Shown: piece by piece, positions 2,816 to 24,800 of the stretch
Layout: each line of letters opens with the position of its first letter
Position numbering within the stretch: position 1 is the first letter of the stretch
NCBI RefSeq assembly: GCF_007993755.1
Contig: NZ_CP042467.1
Coordinates: forward strand, 2,442,001 to 2,506,000
Direction of reading: 5' to 3'
Length of the DNA stretch: 64,000 nucleotides
DNA from: Microvenator marinus
GTDB taxonomy: Bacteria > Myxococcota_A > Bradymonadia > Bradymonadales > Bradymonadaceae
Program-made: the position numbers and the translations under genes
The notes under the pieces: generated by a model
What the model saw: only the letters and a program-made list of their open reading frames with translations
Databases searched by the model: none
Told to the model about the DNA's origin: nothing

Positions 2816-4300
2816 CTAGGCGATCATTCCAGGGATCTCGCCGCCACGCGGCTGATTGTGTCCCTCACCACCTTTGTGGCCAAAATCCTCCACGGGCTGC
2901 CCGGCTGCCTCGCCAACGCCCACAGCGTTGATGATGGTGTTGAAGAGCTGGTTATGGGGCACCCAGTTGTCGGAGTCGCGGTTACCCGTATCGCGGGCAT
3001 CAATATAATGGCCGGTACGCAGATACCCGCCAGCACTGCCCGCCAGCACGTACGGAATATTGCGATAACCATGCCCCACGCCATTGGCCAGGTCGTTGGT
3101 CCACATGGCCACACAATCGTCCAAGAGCGTGCCGGAGTCCGTGGTGTACCCGCTCAGTTGGTCCAACAAGTACTTGAACCATTGCGCGTGAAGCCGGTCG
3201 ATCTGGTAGTGCAGGTTTGCCGCGTTCTCGATCGACGGTGCAGAACCTGAAGCCCCGTCGCCTTGGATACGGTGCGAAATCCAGTGAAACGGATATTCCG
3301 GGCCATTGATGTTGTACGTCGTTTGGTCGTTTCCGTTGCCAATCTGCAAGGTCACAGCGCGCTTGAGATCACACGCAAAAGCGAGCGCAATCACGTCCAT
3401 GAACATTTTGGTGATCTCCTCAACCTCCGCGGGGTCGCGATGCAGCTCCATATTATGCGCGTTCTCCAGGGTCGCCCATTGCTGCTCAGGCAGGTGGCAC
3501 GCCAACATACGGACTTCCAAGTCTCGGATGGAGTCTTGATGGAGCTGCAAACGGTTGATGTCCGCCTGGCTCATTCCCGGGCGGCGGCGCAAGTCCTGAA
3601 GTTGCTCGCGCAAGAGGTCGTTCACACTCTTTCGCTTCATCGCGATCTGGTTTTCCAGATACTCGTTCCCCTGATCAGAAGGCGATCCAAAGAGCGAGAG
3701 ATAAACATCCCACGGACTTCTCTGAGCCGCGCGAAGCCGACCATTTGTCTCGCCAGGCGCGGGTTCTCGGTACGAGAGCACCTCGTCCAGATAGCTCGAG
3801 GAGCGGCCAGACGCCAGGGTAAGGGGCTCGGGATCGCCAGGCACCAACATGCGCTGGATATAGTTATCCAATGACTCACCGGTGGCCAAAGAGCGATTGC
3901 CCGAAGGCGTGGCCGATGGAGGCGTTGCGGTCAAACACTGATTGCCGCCGCCAGAGTGCCCGCACCCATTGCCTGGGAAGGAGAACTTGGTGCCATCCAC
4001 AATCAGGAGCTTGTCATAATAGTCCGCGAGCTCGCCGGTTGAACGGAGGTCGCCCGCATTATCAAGGCGCTGCATCATCTCACGCGTCAGCTGACCGCGC
4101 TCCATGGGCCAGAATTTTTCGGGCTCGGAGCCGGCGGCCTGCGCTACACCGTTGCCCGAACGCATGGCCACAAAGAACTTGGGCTTGACCATGTCTTGCG
4201 CCATGGCTCGCTTGGCTTCAAAGAGGTCCAGAAAAGGCAGGGCCATGGTTACGCCAAAGGCGCCCTTGAGGAAGTTTCTACGGTGCATGACTCTTTTCAT
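2816..4300 (-). CDS. DUF1552 (HXXSHH family) Tat-exported protein
   Basis: This 494-aa protein has a twin-arginine signal peptide (HRRNFLKG at residues 6-13, then a hydrophobic stretch ending near AMAQ) and is probably exported folded. The body matches the DUF1552 family found next to DUF1592-type proteins in Planctomycetes and Myxococcota; its biochemical role is unknown. The family-naming HXXSHH motif reads HWISHR here, so its final His is Arg. The ATG has a strong GGAGGT site and overlaps the stop of the upstream DUF1592 gene by four bases (4297-4300), which implies translational coupling and a joint function at the cell surface or periplasm. Confidence 0.9.
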   Translation of the reverse strand: MKRVMHRRNFLKGAFGVTMALPFLDLFEAKRAMAQDMVKPKFFVAMRSGNGVAQAAGSEPEKFWPMERGQLTREMMQRLDNAGDLRSTGELADYYDKLLIVDGTKFSFPGNGCGHSGGGNQCLTATPPSATPSGNRSLATGESLDNYIQRMLVPGDPEPLTLASGRSSSYLDEVLSYREPAPGETNGRLRAAQRSPWDVYLSLFGSPSDQGNEYLENQIAMKRKSVNDLLREQLQDLRRRPGMSQADINRLQLHQDSIRDLEVRMLACHLPEQQWATLENAHNMELHRDPAEVEEITKMFMDVIALAFACDLKRAVTLQIGNGNDQTTYNINGPEYPFHWISHRIQGDGASGSAPSIENAANLHYQIDRLHAQWFKYLLDQLSGYTTDSGTLLDDCVAMWTNDLANGVGHGYRNIPYVLAGSAGGYLRTGHYIDARDTGNRDSDNWVPHNQLFNTIINAVGVGEAAGQPVEDFGHKGGEGHNQPRGGEIPGMIA

Positions 4301-5991
4301 TGCTGACCTCCGTCGCGCTTAAGGAAGACGTCGTTGACGACCAATCCAGCGATGAGTTCTTTGATGGCGAGATTACTTGCGTGCGAGGCCTGCGCAACGC
4401 GCGCAATCAACGGTTTATCCCCGGCGAGCGGGAGGCGCCCGTGAAGGTACTCGAACCAATGTTCGGCGTAGCACTCGTGGGCCTGCGGGCTCTCGGCGAC
4501 TTGCTCGATAAAGTCCAAAGGACCCTCAAATGAGTTCAGCTCCTGATCAAACGGCAATGTTCCCGACGCATCCACGGGATACTCGCCTTCCTGAGTGCGC
4601 CACTGACCGAGCGCGTCGTAATTTTCAAATGCGTAGCCTGCCGGATTGATCATAGGTGTGTGGCAGGCACCACCGCATTCGCCGGTCGCGTTCTCGATAC
4701 GCTCTCGGTTTGTATTTCCCTGGACACCGTCTGGAATTGAGAAGTTATCAGGGGGCAGCGGAATCACGTTGCAGAGCACCTTCTTGTTGACGAAAACTCC
4801 GCGATGGATGGGGTTTGGGTCGTACTGGGTGGCATTCATGGCCAGGAAGCCTGCGCGCGTCAGGATTCCCGCGCGTTGTGATTCGTCGAGCGAAGCCTGC
4901 CCAAAGGGCTCGGAAGGCGGGTTGATACCGTAAATCCCGGCCACCTCGTCATCCGCAAACACTGTGCGCGAGAGCATCAAATCGCGATAGGTACCGTCCG
5001 ACCCAATCGTATGCGTCAGGAATAGCTCCATCTCGGTCCGTAAGACTTGTGGCGTAGTCTCGGAAAAATTAGGAAAGAGCGACGCTTCTTTTTCCATCTC
5101 GGAGAAGTGCGCAAAATCGAAGAGTTGAGCGTGAAAATCGAGGACTACATCGAGCGCACGTGGATCGTCCAACATCCGGTCGACCTGCGTACGAACACCC
5201 TCAGCACTATCGAGCGCTCCAGCCTCAGCTGCGTCCAAGAGGGCTTGATCTGGCGTGGTGTTCCAGAGCGCAAACGCCAACCGGGTCGCACGCTCGTAGC
5301 CGTTGAGATTAGTGATTCCCGCACCACCAGACCCTTCGATCCGGTAAACAAAATGCGGGGATTGAAGAAAGCCGCGTAACGCAAGCTCCACACGATCCTC
5401 CCACGTGGCGTTATCTGAGGACTCCACGGCTGTGTCCATGAGGGCCACCATTAGGTCTACCTCCGCCGTGCTGAGTGGGCGGCGCCAGGCCTTGAGCCCA
5501 AAGTCCTCAACGAACACACGTGAGCGCTCGTTCAGATCGTCCGGCAAATTTGACGGCATGATTCGCGCCAGGGCCGCGGGGTCATTGACGACCTGCTCCG
5601 CGAGTTGTTCTGCGGCGGCGCGGTAATTATCCCAGAGCACGGGTTCCACGCTGAGCTCGTCCACCATACGGTCGAACGAGCCGGTCCCCCGGGTGTCCTT
5701 GATAAAGGCGTCCGAGAGCCCAGACGTGAACTCGAGCTGAAGAAGGTCTTTGGTGGCCCGCTCCCACTGCGTATGAGTGAGCCTTGACGCCATGGGAGTA
5801 GCCGCAGGTACGGGTGTCTCGCATGCGGCGCCCTGGCAAGGAAGCTCCGGGAAAGGATCGATCTGCGTGTTGTTTGGGTCCACCACCGTGTTCGGTGGTG
5901 GCGAGTCAGCCGCCAAATTGAGCTCGCCCTTACAAGCAGCGCCGCTCACGAGCAGCACAAGGGCTGCCGTGCACATGCCAGAAAATTTCAC
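4297..5991 (-). CDS. DUF1592/DUF1588/DUF1585-domain secreted protein with haem-like motif
   Basis: A 564-aa exported protein of the planctomycete-type DUF1592 group, partner of the downstream DUF1552 gene. GTG 5991 was chosen over an upstream in-frame start because AAGGAG lies six bases before it and translation then begins with a clean hydrophobic signal ending in GAAC, a lipoprotein-like site. The order is: short Pro/Asn linker, PSD-type N-terminal region, DUF1592, DUF1588 (RGVFVNKKVLCNVIPLPP), then a CGGACH motif followed by NPAGYAFENYD, and the C-terminal DUF1585-like segment. Relatives usually have CxxCH here; this copy has three residues between the cysteines. That may still bind haem c or may indicate a different role. 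The stop overlaps the next gene's start. Confidence 0.88.
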   Translation of the reverse strand: MKFSGMCTAALVLLVSGAACKGELNLAADSPPPNTVVDPNNTQIDPFPELPCQGAACETPVPAATPMASRLTHTQWERATKDLLQLEFTSGLSDAFIKDTRGTGSFDRMVDELSVEPVLWDNYRAAAEQLAEQVVNDPAALARIMPSNLPDDLNERSRVFVEDFGLKAWRRPLSTAEVDLMVALMDTAVESSDNATWEDRVELALRGFLQSPHFVYRIEGSGGAGITNLNGYERATRLAFALWNTTPDQALLDAAEAGALDSAEGVRTQVDRMLDDPRALDVVLDFHAQLFDFAHFSEMEKEASLFPNFSETTPQVLRTEMELFLTHTIGSDGTYRDLMLSRTVFADDEVAGIYGINPPSEPFGQASLDESQRAGILTRAGFLAMNATQYDPNPIHRGVFVNKKVLCNVIPLPPDNFSIPDGVQGNTNRERIENATGECGGACHTPMINPAGYAFENYDALGQWRTQEGEYPVDASGTLPFDQELNSFEGPLDFIEQVAESPQAHECYAEHWFEYLHGRLPLAGDKPLIARVAQASHASNLAIKELIAGLVVNDVFLKRDGGQQ

Positions 5992-6635
5992 GTGTTGCTC
6001 CTTCTTAGGTCCACGCGGTTCTCTCCGCGTGACTTGCTCGTCCATCGTAAGCAACATCCTACCGAATTCTGCGGAGATATCCAATCGAGGACCACCTCCA
6101 CTAAAATCACCCTGAGCATAAAAATGAAAAAAATCCTCAACACTTCTCCAAATCGTCCGAAAAAGAATTGAAGAAGGAGTTTTGTTTGGAGGATTTATGG
6201 AAGCAAAGAAGCAGATTTTTCACAATCAACACGAAAAGTGGTGCCTCAACGTAGCGCTACCATTTTGTGGCAAAGTGATTCGACATCGTGCATTTCGGCA
6301 GTATTTGGTGGTCGATGCACAGATTCGACTGGATCGTCCTTTGGAAATCTGGGCAGATCTGAGCCCGTATCTTGTCTCGAGAAACACGTTTATCGAGCAT
6401 TTCTCAAACTCCGTAAGCTTGGCGTGCTTTGCGTCGTCCCAGGAGAAGATTTTTCACGCCCATGGGTCCCAGTGGACTATGGGTGAAAGGACCTCTAGAC
6501 TTTGGCACAACCTTTCTGGTTGTAACCTCACGATTACCTTCGGGTCCGCGCTACGACTGGCTCAGAATGAGCACTCGGGTTCCGAAGAACACATCAGAGT
6601 ATGAAAGAGCAACGGCTTTGATAAGGAGCGAGAAA
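5992..6635. other. Low-GC stretch without a convincing gene
   Basis: About 640 bases separate the DUF1592 start from the small coiled-coil gene. The first 190 bases form an A-rich divergent intergenic region with an AAGGAG at 6174-6179 and a GGAGGA at 6188-6193. The rest contains overlapping ORFs in two plus-strand frames (6197-6604 and 6238-6486). Neither resembles a family I know, and their codon use differs from the neighbouring housekeeping genes. I saw no terminal repeats, tRNA or recognisable transposase. The most plausible readings are a small orphan gene or a decayed one. Confidence 0.5.
6197..6604 (+). CDS. Doubtful orphan ORF
   Basis: This ORF encodes 135 residues from ATG 6197, three bases after GGAGGA, which is closer than usual; a TTG at 6182 near AAGGAG is an alternative start. 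The predicted protein is His/Cys/Trp-containing, has no signal peptide or membrane segment, and matches no family I recognise. A second ORF in another frame (6238-6486) covers the same DNA and ends in a protein-like stretch, KLRKLGVLCVVPGEDF. It is therefore unclear which frame, if any, is coding, and a frameshifted remnant is possible. Confidence 0.25.
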   Translation: MEAKKQIFHNQHEKWCLNVALPFCGKVIRHRAFRQYLVVDAQIRLDRPLEIWADLSPYLVSRNTFIEHFSNSVSLACFASSQEKIFHAHGSQWTMGERTSRLWHNLSGCNLTITFGSALRLAQNEHSGSEEHIRV

Positions 6636-7814: not shown

Positions 7815-8435
7815 TCATTCTAGATTCCCACACTCAAAAGCGGGCCCAATCTCATACACTTTGTTAGGCAACGAGAATCTCGCGTTCAATGGACCAAATG
7901 GATTTGCCTCGTCTTCCGCGAATTGAATCTCGAGGTCAATCGCCTCCACCTCAAGAGGTTGCGATAAATCCGTCACTACCACGTTGACGGTGCCTTTCGC
8001 GGTGGTCGCCGACACACCTGCACTTGTCTCTACAAGAATTTGAGAATCACATAAGGTAGCTGACAAGCGAACTTCTGAAGTTTTGTAAGTTAGGTCATCG
8101 TCGATTTCATATGATGAACTTTCAGTATTTTGGTCAAGCACAACCCTGATGCAGGCGGGAGGTGAACTGGACTCGGCGAAGATGACAATCGGCCCCAAAG
8201 CGTAGTCAATCAAGCAACTGTCTACTAGGTCCCATTCGTCTTTCTCGACGGGCCCTTCTTGATCTGGTCCGACGTCAACCTCGGGGGCCAAATCATTCTC
8301 TCCAGAATCAGTTGCATCGCCCATTTCGACAGTCATATCCATTTCTGACGCTGGCGGTGGGTCGTCTTCCGAACAGCCATAAGAGAGCGTTGCCACTAAC
8401 ACGAACACACTAAGGACTCTGGCTTGATTAATCAT
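7815..8435 (-). CDS. Putative lipoprotein, last gene of a three-lipoprotein operon
   Basis: A 206-aa protein that I do not recognise. The ATG at 8435 follows GGAGAGTTTT. The signal peptide ends in LSYGC, a lipobox-like site, followed by a Pro/Asp/Glu-rich linker to about residue 65. The remaining 140 residues look beta-rich and contain four cysteines that could pair. The first eight bases overlap the end of the upstream lipoprotein gene, so the two are probably co-translated. GC content is lower than in the flanking core genes. A cell-surface role is inferred only from the lipoprotein signal and the operon context. Confidence 0.7.
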   Translation of the reverse strand: MINQARVLSVFVLVATLSYGCSEDDPPPASEMDMTVEMGDATDSGENDLAPEVDVGPDQEGPVEKDEWDLVDSCLIDYALGPIVIFAESSSPPACIRVVLDQNTESSSYEIDDDLTYKTSEVRLSATLCDSQILVETSAGVSATTAKGTVNVVVTDLSQPLEVEAIDLEIQFAEDEANPFGPLNARFSLPNKVYEIGPAFECGNLE

Positions 8436-9123
8436 AAAACTCTCCGTTAAACTTAACCGTCCCTGTGACCTCTACCTTTGAAAGAAACTCAAGAAACTCT
8501 TCTTCAGTCACTCTTTCGGCAAAGATTTCAAGGTCCCCTTCGACTCGTTTAAGACTTGCGAATCCATCCAAACTTCTCAGATTAGGGACACTGCTGACAC
8601 GAAGTCCTCCGACGGACCCAAGAACTGGGAACGTAATCTCTTCAGCAGGTAGACTATTCAGGTCCAGCCTGCCCTCTACAGACCTCAACCTCGAGAATGA
8701 GATGGTTGTTGGCATGTGCGGAATTTCTTGCAAGAACAACGTACGACCTATCGCCTCGATACTTAACAATCCATCGAATTCTTTGAGGTTAAAAGCGCGG
8801 CTGATAGCCAGATCCTGTCGAATCTCTCGAACTTCGGAGAGTTCCTGAACGCTCTCTTGAAAGAAGTTCACCAATGACAAACTGCCTAAGATTACCTCAC
8901 ATCCTTGCGCGTTTTGAAGCTGGTCGGCTCGCCAAATCTCATCGGGATTCCCACATTCAACCAGATCGACCTCCGCGTCTTCGACCTGATCGGGGAAGCT
9001 CATATCTCCATCCGCACCTTCGATTGGAAGATTGTCAACCTCTTGATGCATGCAGCCGCCAAGAACACTGCCTAAGAAAACAGCCATGAAGAATAGCACT
9101 TGTGGTTCGAATCGTGTTTTCAT
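8428..9123 (-). CDS. Lipoprotein with receptor-L/leucine-rich-like repeats
   Basis: A 231-aa lipoprotein: hydrophobic signal, lipobox LGGC, and a short Asp/Glu linker. From about residue 65, repeated segments of the kind LxGxLxLxxLxxLxxL resemble the beta-helical Receptor L-domain or LRR folds used for binding surface ligands (for example VGGLRVSSVPNLRSLDGF). The start ATG at 9123 overlaps the stop of the upstream gene by four bases (ATGA), and its own end overlaps the next gene by eight bases. The middle position makes its expression depend on translation of the repeat-controlled gene upstream. The fold assignment is inference from hydrophobic periodicity, not a family match I can name precisely. 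Confidence 0.7.
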   Translation of the reverse strand: MKTRFEPQVLFFMAVFLGSVLGGCMHQEVDNLPIEGADGDMSFPDQVEDAEVDLVECGNPDEIWRADQLQNAQGCEVILGSLSLVNFFQESVQELSEVREIRQDLAISRAFNLKEFDGLLSIEAIGRTLFLQEIPHMPTTISFSRLRSVEGRLDLNSLPAEEITFPVLGSVGGLRVSSVPNLRSLDGFASLKRVEGDLEIFAERVTEEEFLEFLSKVEVTGTVKFNGEFYD

Positions 9124-11412
9124 TGATTTATCGGCTCCGCACTGCCCGGGTTGACTATGTACTCAATTCCCTCATCCGATACACACTCCACCCCGAGTTC
9201 TTGGACTAGAGTGATGGTTTCGCCTTCTTCGAGTTGCCTCGACAATAAGATCATACTTTCACCGCCATCGCCGATCTCATCCCCGTTCGAATCGTAGACC
9301 CGGATAGATGCCCCAGGAACAGCGTTGGAAACGATGACATAGTCTTGGCCTGCAATCAAAGTTGCAACCTCAAGGGTGTTCAATTCTTCACATGACTTTG
9401 TAACAATTGCCTGAGTCGTGGGACTAAAGACACAAAGTTCTTGAGTCACCGCCAGTTCGTCGCCCGGAAGAAAAGGCCTCCCGAATGCAGTCACGAAATC
9501 CCAACGATGTGTGGTATGGGTTGGCCACGAAAAAATCTGGTCAATCGCTCCGACGCTTGTTTCATCTATGTGCACGGTGGCCCCTTCAACTACCGACGAA
9601 AACTGAAATAGTTCCTGGGTTTCGTAAACCTCCGCTGGGTCCACGGCAACCGCTCTCAGAGGGCTCGGTGCAGCAAGAGCAAAGATTGGGGCCGACGGCT
9701 CACTTTCGTCCTGGCACATCTCTTGATAGACTTCTATCTGGTCACCGATACTAAAGGGGCCGTCCCCAAGCGCGACGGTGTACCCGCCCGATCGGCCACC
9801 ATTGAAACGCGGTGTACCTGAGTTCGTAACTACCATCAGGTTGGCTCCAGGCACATGTTTAACGGCTATCTGATAAGCACACTCATGCGTTTTTTGGGGC
9901 TCTATCGTGGGTGCTGGTAGACCATTTGGGTAATCATCCAGATAGTGACGCACTTCAACAACGTTTGAATTGAGAGACGTGACACCTCCAAATGTTTGCG
10001 TGGCCCACACCACCTGACCAGATTGTAGCGGAGGAACAACGAAATCTTGGGAATCTGGGTCACGAATCACCCCAGATGCAACTGGTACTCCGTCCACGAA
10101 GACATTTACCGATGAGTTCAATCTAGCGCCCCTGACGCCGACTGTTTCTGCGCACTCATAAAGTGGGGCGATGACGATTGGAGGAGAAAGAAATTGCAAA
10201 TTTGACGGTGGGTCCTGCACAACGTTACCCGAACTTGGGGGATTCGCGCATAGCTGCTCCAGAAACTCTATATGAGTTGTGTAGATCGACGGGTCACCGG
10301 CGGGAGGCATGGTGTTTTGAATCGCCCCAGCGAGCACGACGCCGCAGTAGCCAGGCAAGTCCGTCGACAAGAGAGGGAACCTACCACCCGCTGCTCCGTG
10401 GCAACTCTCGCAACTCCCACCCGAGGTTGCAGGCGGAAATGACGCAAGAGGACCTGGATTTTTTACCCAGCTTTGGGGAACGATAGGTTCTGGCCAACTA
10501 TTGGAAAACAGGGATTGGGAGTTCGCTTTGAGGTCAATAAACGCTGGCTCTTGGGGATGAACAACAAATGGGTTGGCTCCGGCATGACAATCGGTACACA
10601 TCCCGCCCGAAGGGTTGAGTTCTAGATCAGCCCCTCCAATAAAATTGTCAATCGGGTAGCCCGACAGGGTTCGAGTAGGCGTCCATGGGGTGTAACCAGG
10701 ATGTGTTGTCGGATTGTCAAAGTAGCAGACCTTGCTTGTCTGCCTTCCGAGGCAGGTAACACTAAAGAGGACTGCCTCATCATTGTTGTTCCACCTTGGC
10801 AATGCCACACAAATACCATCTGGGTCTGAGTCTTCCCAACTCCAAAGTTCGGCACTCAAATTTGGGAGAACAAACTCGCTCTGAATTGCTCCATGATTTG
10901 TCCAATCATCAGACAAAACTCTATTGGGAACTGGCACACCGTTAGCAATACATTCCTGAATGTAGTCCTCACCGGTGAGGTTTGTGGAGAGAGCTTGACG
11001 AGATATTCTGTGACTTTCGGAAAACGGTGTATCTGCCGCGGCCAGAAAGACACCTCGACTGATCATCTTGTCGAGGGCGACGCCGGGTTCCTTCTGATCT
11101 TCTGCGAGGTGCAACAGTGTATCTAAGGTCTCAAAATTTTTCCTTAGGTCTCCCGCGTGAGTTTCTGTATTTCTTCCCAACCTAGTGGACCATTTCTCAA
11201 TCAAGCTTCGTTGAGTGGCCAACGCTACTTCCATGTCAACATCGACTGATCGTGTTTTGCTGTTGAAGAACTGACCATGCCCCATCCCGGCAACCACCTC
11301 CGCAACCCGGGTTGTTGGTTCCGTAGACTTATCTTCAGAGCATGCGCTCATGAACAAGAAGATCAGATAGAGAGAGAGAGAGAGAGAGAAGAGATTTCCA
11401 CCTAGTTTTCAT
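9120..11412 (-). CDS. Cytochrome c-like surface lipoprotein, out of frame at an (AG)10 tract
   Basis: The long frame (9120-11357, 745 codons) lacks a ribosome site at its first start-like codons (TTG 11357, ATG 11351). A good ATG at 11412, five bases after GGAGGG and downstream of a strong promoter, opens a signal peptide but is out of frame by one base because of the CT/AG dinucleotide tract. As written it stops after 25 codons. Eleven or eight repeat units would restore a perfect lipoprotein signal ending FMSAC. The mature protein has two CxxCH haem motifs (CTDCH and CESCH, about residues 254 and 316 of the long frame), an MPPAG segment that could supply a Met ligand, and a long C-terminal region of beta-rich, Ig-like repeats. 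The gene is probably phase-variable; a sequencing slip is the main alternative. Confidence 0.75.
11369..11388. repeat. (AG)10 dinucleotide tract within signal-peptide codons
   Basis: Ten uninterrupted AG units, followed by A and a second short AGAGA run at 11390-11394. On the minus strand the tract encodes alternating Leu/Ser in the hydrophobic core of the lipoprotein signal. Because the unit is two bases, slipped-strand changes move the downstream gene through all three frames. The present length is the out-of-frame state for ATG 11412. Confidence 0.95.
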
Positions 11413-11435
11413 TTTAACCCTCCAATGGGTTGTCC

Positions 11436-11462: not shown

Positions 11463-11491
11463 ACGATAAAGACTAGCTCCAATCATGTCAA
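11463..11491 (-). promoter_or_regulatory. Sigma-70-like promoter of the lipoprotein operon
   Basis: Minus strand: a perfect -35 box TTGACA (11491-11486), a 17-base spacer, and a -10 box TATCGT (11468-11463). Transcription would begin near 11456, giving a leader of about 45 bases before ATG 11412 with its GGAGGG site at 11423-11418. This placement supports ATG 11412, not the internal TTG/ATG, as the real start. Confidence 0.6.
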
Positions 11492-21883: not shown

Positions 21884-24800
21884 ATGCACAAGTTTGTTTT
21901 ATCCGTAATCTTATTGGGTCTCTTTCCGCTGGCGGCAGAGGCTCAGACTTTTCCTGTTTTCCCAACCGACATCAATGATTGGGAGCCCGTCGTGCGAAAC
22001 TCGGATCCCGTCGGCGATGTCTTGGGTGATGGTACCGGAAGGCGCGACCTCGTGGGCGATTTTTCCAGACCAGTTGCCTATATGGCATCGGATGCCAACT
22101 TCATGTACGGCCGAATTCGCCTCAACGTGGACCCACGTCAGGGTGCAGGGCTTGCACCTTTTTCATGGGGGTTCCTCGTGGACACCGACGGCAACTACGC
22201 GGCCTATGAATTCATGATCATGGTGGACGGCATCAGCAACCCCAACAACGTGCTGCTTCAGGCCAATACCACCAAGAGCATTACTGGTGACCCAGGTGAT
22301 GCGGCGGAGCTGACCGTATGGTCCGGACTCTTCTCCAACTTCGGACAGGTGGTCAAAGCCTGCGACCAGATTGTGGAAGGAAATTGTTTTGAATCGAACG
22401 ATGACTTCTATTTGGACTTTGCGATACCGTGGGTTGAGTTGGCAAAGACTCCTGTAAACTTCTTACCTGGAAATGAGTTCGCGGTCGTCGCTGCATCGGG
22501 CAACTCGAACAACACATTGAGCAATGATTATGCGGGCATCGGCACCTCTTTGACAGACCTGATTTCTGACGAAATCTGCACGGATAGCGACTTTGACGGT
22601 ATCAGCGATTGCGACGAGGACCTCGACGGTGATGGCGATCCGGCGAACGACGACACGGATTGCGATGGCACGCCAAACTACCTCGATGCAGACGATGATA
22701 ATGACGGTACCGACACTATCCTCGAGGACACGAATGGGAATGGAGATTGGTTTGACGATGATGCGGACGCGGATGGCGTTCCCGACTTTTTAGACAATGA
22801 CGACCTCAATCCATTTGTCGCAGTTTCAACTCCTGCCGATGGAGACCTCGTCAATACGGCAGTGACTCAAGTCGAGGGCCTGAGCGACCCAGATGCTGAG
22901 GTATCCGTGAGCATTGACGGGGGCACGCCTGTGGTGACCACTGCCGATGCATCAGGCAATTGGACGGCAGTATTGACCTCAAGCATCGCTGACGGTCTGC
23001 ACTCAATCAATGTGGTTTCTACGTCGTGTCAGGTCAGCGCCGGCACCACGACCACATTCACTCAAGACACCACGCCCCCTGCACTCGCCATACTGACTCC
23101 CACCGATGGCACAGTGACCGAGAGTGCTGACGTTCTTGTCTCCGGCACTGCTGAAGTCGGTAGCACCTTGACCGTGAGTGTTGATGGGCAGGCTCCTCAA
23201 GCCGTGACGGTTGGTACGGATGGAACCTGGACCTTGCAGCTCACTGGCCTCGCTCTCGGAGGACACACGGTCCTTGCTGTGGCTGAGGATGCTGCCGGAA
23301 ACACCTCAACTGAGCTCATTGGCTTCACGGTGAATGTCGATGAATGTGCAGACCCTGCAGACAACGACTGCTCGAGCAATGCGGCGTGCATTGATACCCC
23401 AACATCCTTTACGTGTGAGTGCCTCCCAGGATTCGAAGGGGACGGCGTTACCTGTACAGATATCGACGAGTGTGCACTTGGTACCGACACCTGTTCGGAC
23501 GACGCTACATGCACGGACACGGAAGGTAGTTTTGAGTGTGCGTGCTTGCCTGGATTCGTAGGCGACGGCTTTACCTGTACCGACATCGACGAATGTGCGC
23601 TCGGGACCGACACATGCGCGGACGACGCCACATGCACCGACACCGACGGAAGTTTTGAGTGCTCGTGTTTGCCTGGCTACCAAGGCGATGGCTTTACCTG
23701 TACCGATATCGACGAATGTGCGCTCGGGACCGACACATGCGCGGATGACGCCACCTGCACCGACACCGACGGAAGTTTTGAATGTGCGTGCTTGCCCGGG
23801 TACGAGGGTGATGGCTTTACCTGTACCGATATTGACGAGTGCGCCACCGGCGCGGACAACTGCTCGGCGGACGCCACATGCACCGATACGGACGGAAGTT
23901 TTGAGTGCGCGTGCTTGCCCGGGTACGAGGGCGACGGCGTGACCTGCACCGATATCGACGAGTGTGCGCTCGGGACCGATACATGCGCGGATGACGCCAC
24001 ATGCACCGACACCGATGGAAGTTTTGAGTGCGCATGTTTGCCTGGCTACCAAGGTGATGGCTTTACCTGTACCGATATTGACGAGTGCGCCACTGGCGCG
24101 GACAACTGCTCGGCGGACGCCACATGCACCGATACAGACGGAAGTTTTGAGTGCGCGTGCTTGCCTGGGTACGAGGGCGACGGCGTGACGTGCACCGATA
24201 TCGACGAATGCCAGTTGAACACGGACGATTGTGCAGGAAACACCTTTTGTTCAAACCTCCCAGGCACCTTCACCTGTGAAGATTGCCCGAGCGGCTTTGA
24301 GTCCATCAATGGTGTCTGCGAGGATATTGACGAATGTCTTGAGGGAACCGACACGTGTGATGATCTGACGCAATGTACGAATACGACCGGTGGGTTTGAG
24401 TGTAGCGCATGTCCTGATGGCTATACCGACGTCAACGGCGACGGGACTCAGTGTGACGATATCGATGAGTGTCTCGGCAATCCTTGCGATGATGTGACGA
24501 CATGCACCAACTCTGCGGGTAGTTTCTCGTGCACGGCATGCCCACCAGGCTACGCCGATGTCAACGGAGACGGGACGGTCTGCGAAGACATCAACGAGTG
24601 CCTTGAACTCACCGACGATTGCGACGAGCTGGCCGTGTGCGTCAACGAAACCGGCGGATTTACATGCGAGACTTGCCCAACGGGTTACGAAGACGTCAAC
24701 GGTGATGGCACCGAGTGCGTCAATATCGACGAGTGTACTCTTGGCACTGATAACTGCGATGAGAACGCGAGTTGTACAGATGTTCCGGGAAGCTTCGCAT

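Follow-up and report, generated by a model that had tools for sequence, protein, structure and literature searches.

The window analysed here is a stretch of 64,000 nucleotides of Microvenator marinus DNA (contig NZ_CP042467.1, positions 2,442,001 to 2,506,000). The element under study, a dinucleotide repeat tract, lies on its minus strand at the 5' end of a lipoprotein gene, which is followed by two further lipoprotein genes (Table 1). A putative promoter-like site and a ribosome-binding site precede the ATG of a short leader. After this ATG the leader reads MKTRWKSLLSLSLSLSDLLVHERML and then ends at a TGA; with the (CT)10 tract inside, it begins MKTRWKSLLSLSLS. On the plus strand the pure repeat is (AG)10, and Tandem Repeats Finder extended it imperfectly to 11365-11394. 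The lipobox FMSAC and the mature protein lie in another frame, called here the body frame, which was assigned by its openness and by homology. It contains LYLIFLFMSACSEDKSTEP and stays open, counted from TTG 11357, for 745 codons until the stop at 9120. It enters as LYLIFLFMSACSEDKS, which corresponds to a signal-peptide core and the lipobox with no usable start. Upstream, the body frame is closed by the TGA within ATGAAAA, and no ATG, GTG or TTG was found in it 5' of the tract.

The tract sits between the start codon and the body, and the number of its units sets the frame. Fusion of the leader to the body requires a unit number of 2 modulo 3 (8 or 11). With its present 10 units the deposited genome is in the off state, and the body is intact despite the wrong phase, with not one stop in its 745 codons. 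A preliminary description of this DNA, made from the letters alone, had placed the ribosome-binding site, the start and the terminating TGA at coordinates that we reproduced, with a signal-peptide core coded by the repeat. It had also noted that the 745-codon frame continues without a good start and that adding one unit or removing two would fuse the leader to the FMSAC body; the search for start codons agreed with the former and the frame arithmetic with the latter.

Table 1 Features of the switch region and of the genes downstream (window coordinates).
Feature	Coordinates	Strand	Remarks
Putative promoter-like site, TTGACA-17-TATCGT	11463..11491	-	10 of 12 consensus matches; no second site in the region; expectation from shuffled sequence 0.3
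Ribosome-binding site GGAGGG	11418..11423	-	read from the sequence; GGAGG 6 nucleotides 5' of the ATG
Leader frame, current phase	11335..11412	-	ATG 11412-11410, 25 codons, TGA 11337-11335
Sense (CT)10 tract	11369..11388	-	Ser-Leu repeats in the signal-peptide core; proposed slip site; unique in the genome
Body frame, lipobox FMSAC and mature protein with two CXXCH	9120..11357	-	stop-free inside; no Pfam family
Second gene, lipoprotein with receptor-L / leucine-rich domain	8428..9123	-	Pfam PF01030, E 6e-7; ATGA overlap with the first gene
Third gene, lipoprotein, family unassigned	7815..8435	-	overlaps the second gene; no Pfam match; probable operon end

We found that the (CT)10 tract is the only array of at least six CT units in the genome of 5,847,748 bases, which consists of one contig and is 97.5% complete. 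Apart from it, the whole genome lacks pure runs of CA, CT, GA or GT with seven units or more. A first-order Markov estimate, with the composition taken from the window, gave an expectation per genome of about 1 array of at least six units and of 2.5e-5 arrays of at least ten units; the tract exceeds the length expected by chance.

Among 21 genomes of the same bacterial family, CT/AG arrays of at least eight units were found at five places in four genomes, all five at the 5' ends of lipoprotein genes. The sense CT repeat lies in the lipoprotein signal peptide, each time out of frame, in the window genome (G000 in our numbering), in G010 (12 units) and in G016 (10 and 8 units). The fourth genome, G015, has an AG tract at a contig end (C24, locus L049), directly 5' of the lipoprotein signal peptide ALRVPVFLIATVTFCFSGC. 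A member of the same class, G055, carries two 8-unit arrays, neither at a lipoprotein 5' end. The G000 protein had no match in G010, and its sole match in G016 was weak, partial and on a tract-free contig. As the proteins of G000, G010 and G016 are not all related, the architecture is recurrent and not inherited with one gene.

Scanning of 379 Myxococcota genomes for at least nine CT units gave 30 loci in 24 genomes. In eight of these loci (G000, G010, G016, G080, G151, G115, G300 and G146) the product is a lipoprotein or a secreted protein, and the tract lies in sense direction within its signal peptide. This share of 8 in 30 compares with only 1-2.5% for short CT runs. With the 8-unit tract of G016 added, the eight form a set of nine tracts from at least five Myxococcota families, so that the layout, which the preliminary description had called unusual in Myxococcota, is less unusual than supposed. 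Comparison of the start and ribosome site with the open, codon-periodic body frame placed seven of the nine out of frame and two (G300 and G146) in frame, close to the 6:3 that free switching would predict, where genes that must be on would give 0:9. At most of the nine the body frame was codon-periodic, as in a real gene.

Three loci were left out as signal-peptide tracts: L163 and L175, where (CT)9 lies in the untranslated region shortly 5' of the start codon and could act as a switch of a different type, and L177, where the CT tract is inside an ABC-transporter gene. Several very long CT/AG arrays were also seen in G280 and G329 (L171, L176, L184 and L186-L188), on eukaryotic-looking contigs that are probably bin contamination. 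At L049, L195 (G151, contig C17) and L168 (G147, contig C150), contigs end within or near long CT/AG tracts, as though assembly had been interrupted by the repeat or by variation in its length.

In relatives, close copies differ in the length of the tract and, with it, in frame state. A homologue of the G115 gene (family f14) is present twice in G140; each copy has (CT)8 and is in frame (MGRRVRVKLTLSLSLAVVGLW and MAGRVRVKLTLSLSLAVVGLW). The G115 tract, with flanks similar to those of the G140 copies, is (CT)9 and out of frame; shared-flank relatives thus differ by one unit and by state. G151 also has two copies with nearly identical flanks, one in frame with an interrupted, shorter tract (contig C1) and one out of frame with (CT)10 (C17). 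Three paralogous leaders of G016, closely similar in their flanks, have 4, 8 and 10 units.

Other repeats occupy the place of the CT tract in related leaders, with G8, G9 and G11 in those of G011 and G012. Orthologous leaders of these two genomes carry G8 in one and G9 in the other, the remaining flanks being aligned, and both are out of frame. Their bodies gave a nonsynonymous divergence (dN) of 0.071, a synonymous divergence (dS) of 0.51 and a dN/dS of 0.14, which shows that the body is maintained by purifying selection in two out-of-frame orthologues. In a paralogue of the G010 gene (L065, G010 contig C24), a lipoprotein gene, the corresponding part of the signal peptide contains (CCTT)10, which is out of frame. 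Poly-G was rejected as a general marker: runs of at least nine G are frequent (32-74 in each of G010-G012), and most of the G010 runs that were sampled lie in ordinary places. Only the three poly-G cases in homologous leaders were retained. A run of 16 C was seen 5' of a homologue of the G016 gene (L051, G018 contig C596), possibly a switch of the promoter type.

Taken together, the tract is very probably a simple-sequence (slipped-strand) contingency locus for phase variation of the lipoprotein. The layout of such a locus, already put forward in the preliminary description, is supported by nine independent tracts, by the intact bodies, by the presence of both frame states and by the pairs in relatives. 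Slippage of DNA polymerase on the CT repeat would add or remove units, one or several at a time, and would thereby bring the start codon and its signal peptide into or out of the body frame. In one third of the length classes the signal peptide would be complete, with a Ser-Leu core that varies in length, and an envelope lipoprotein resembling a haem protein would be exported and lipidated; in the remaining two thirds translation would stop within about 30 codons. Because of the ATGA overlap, the off state would probably also lower translation of the downstream leucine-rich lipoprotein. Switching could serve to vary the cell surface in the face of phage, predators or prey partners. As contact-dependent killing of prey has been proposed for Bradymonadales (PMC7460792), differences in surface proteins could be relevant to prey, to phage or to predators.

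Some observations speak against a contingency locus. Length variation of this (CT)10 itself is unseen, the analysis having covered a single copy of the gene from one strain. Its nearest homologue (L157, G005 contig C632) is without such a tract and is broken, with an in-frame stop in the leader and frameshifts in the body. Signal-peptide cores rich in Leu and Ser raise the chance of CT runs somewhat: in a small sample not selected for CT tracts, with signal peptides called by simple rules, 1.35% of the 2-unit runs and 2.5% of the 3-unit runs fell in signal peptides, compared to 0.74% of the sequence. Poly-G is common in the GC-rich relatives, and the poly-G leaders therefore carry little weight alone.

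A sequencing or assembly slip, with a true unit number in frame and a gene that is always on, is improbable. Dinucleotide runs are prone to error, and some assemblies stop inside or near such tracts (G015 contig C24, G151 contig C17). However, independent slips would be needed at most of the nine tracts in separate assemblies, and among the G140/G115 and the G151 copies both states occur in shared flanks; moreover, strain V1718, if it is the source of the window, was assembled from PacBio and Illumina data (PMC7460792). A similarly small probability is given to recent inactivation by a single loss of frame at the tract, with the gene now in decay. The lesions of the G005 homologue and the off state of the deposited genome would fit such decay, but no further lesion was found across the 745 codons, open and codon-periodic bodies stand behind most out-of-frame tracts, and purifying selection was detected between the two out-of-frame orthologues, which belong to the same bacterial family. 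The recurrence in nine tracts, together with the one-unit differences of state in relatives, makes either a single sequencing slip or decay hard to sustain.

Even less probable is a recoding site in place of a DNA switch, at which a -2 ribosomal shift or RNA-polymerase slippage would yield the product already in the present phase. The CU repeat would indeed permit perfect re-pairing after a two-base shift, but in-frame relatives (G300, G146 and G140) keep the same kind of tract with no recoding needed, poly-G or CCTT replaces CT at the same place in relatives, and we know of no such recoding on CU repeats. Translation from within the body, with an irrelevant leader, can practically be dismissed: TTG 11357 and ATG 11349 are both in frame, but neither has a ribosome site, and a product starting MFMSAC or MSAC, lacking the charged start and hydrophobic core, would presumably leave the CXXCH protein in the cytoplasm. 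Haem attachment at CXXCH occurs outside the cytoplasm and needs export; the export signal therefore matters, and a start inside the body makes little sense.

The cysteine and histidine residues of the two CXXCH motifs are invariant among three homologues, the window protein and two distant ones from a Myxococcaceae metagenome bin. The Pfam search of the first-gene protein gave no family, and in NCBIfam one CXXCH model scored under its cut-off. With conserved CXXCH motifs and no match to a curated cytochrome family, the protein is called only cytochrome-like. Sequence searches of the PDB with the window and G010 proteins found no relative, a PHROGs search gave no match, and structure prediction of the window protein from a three-row alignment was uninformative, with a mean predicted local distance difference test score (pLDDT) of 34. 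With the lipobox FMSAC in its body frame, the lipoprotein may be located at the cell surface. A MACPF-like nature of the G010 protein, suggested by one motif, had no support in Pfam and is not claimed.

A gene for a receptor-L/leucine-rich lipoprotein is also found 3' of the L014, L015 and G005 homologues. The unrelated tract gene of G010, too, is followed by one for a Receptor-L lipoprotein. Elsewhere in the window, positions 4297-6084 code for a lipoprotein-like protein with the Pfam domains PSD2, PSD3, PSD4, PSD5 and PSCyt3 (DUF1585, 1587, 1592, 1595 and 1588), and positions 23434-24211 hold about 6 copies of a 123-base tandem unit, the consensus of which seems to encode EGF-like repeats of the DIDEC type.

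Extended to the phylum, the contingency reading would mean that Myxococcota, including the predatory Bradymonadales, have dispersed, randomly switched envelope lipoproteins, that the switch has been built into signal peptides again and again from any repeat available (CT, G or CCTT), and that every population mixes cells with different surfaces, which might insure it against phage or suit different prey; we consider the chances of this wider proposal to be even. If it is true, phage, predators or prey can select repeat switching in free-living, partly predatory Myxococcota, and the loci described here are offered as places where such selection becomes testable. Genes of this kind are likely annotated as truncated or free of a signal peptide. 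To our knowledge, repeat-driven phase variation is known mainly, or almost entirely, from host-living bacteria. Phase variation in Myxococcus xanthus, from a title cited in PMC8538405, is the only case that a literature search turned up in the phylum, and a repeat tract is not known to us as its basis. The literature on phase variation and repeats, as far as it was covered, held no report of switching driven by repeats in Myxococcota; this coverage was incomplete.

Known systems offer close parallels. The copy number of CT repeats in the signal-peptide region decides between on and off in oipA of Helicobacter pylori (PMC6327388), as we propose for the window tract. The oipA product differs in being an outer-membrane protein of a gastric pathogen from another phylum, with five to nine units, and no homology is claimed. 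Neisseria pilC1 and pilC2 are described as undergoing slipped-strand switching by a homopolymer (poly-G) in the region coding for the signal peptide (PMC13190605). The G011 and G012 leaders with poly-G resemble this signal-peptide switch; pilC1 and pilC2 differ from the window gene in having poly-G and not CT, and in coding for a pilus-associated adhesin and not a CXXCH lipoprotein. The tetranucleotide and pentanucleotide contingency genes of Haemophilus influenzae and Neisseria follow the same slippage logic in host-adapted pathogens, with a repeat unit unlike the CT of the window, and the (CCTT)10 leader of G010 contig C24 is of this type. The window locus would then work like oipA of H. pylori or pilC of Neisseria, by a known type of mechanism in a phylum that is, as far as we found, new to it.
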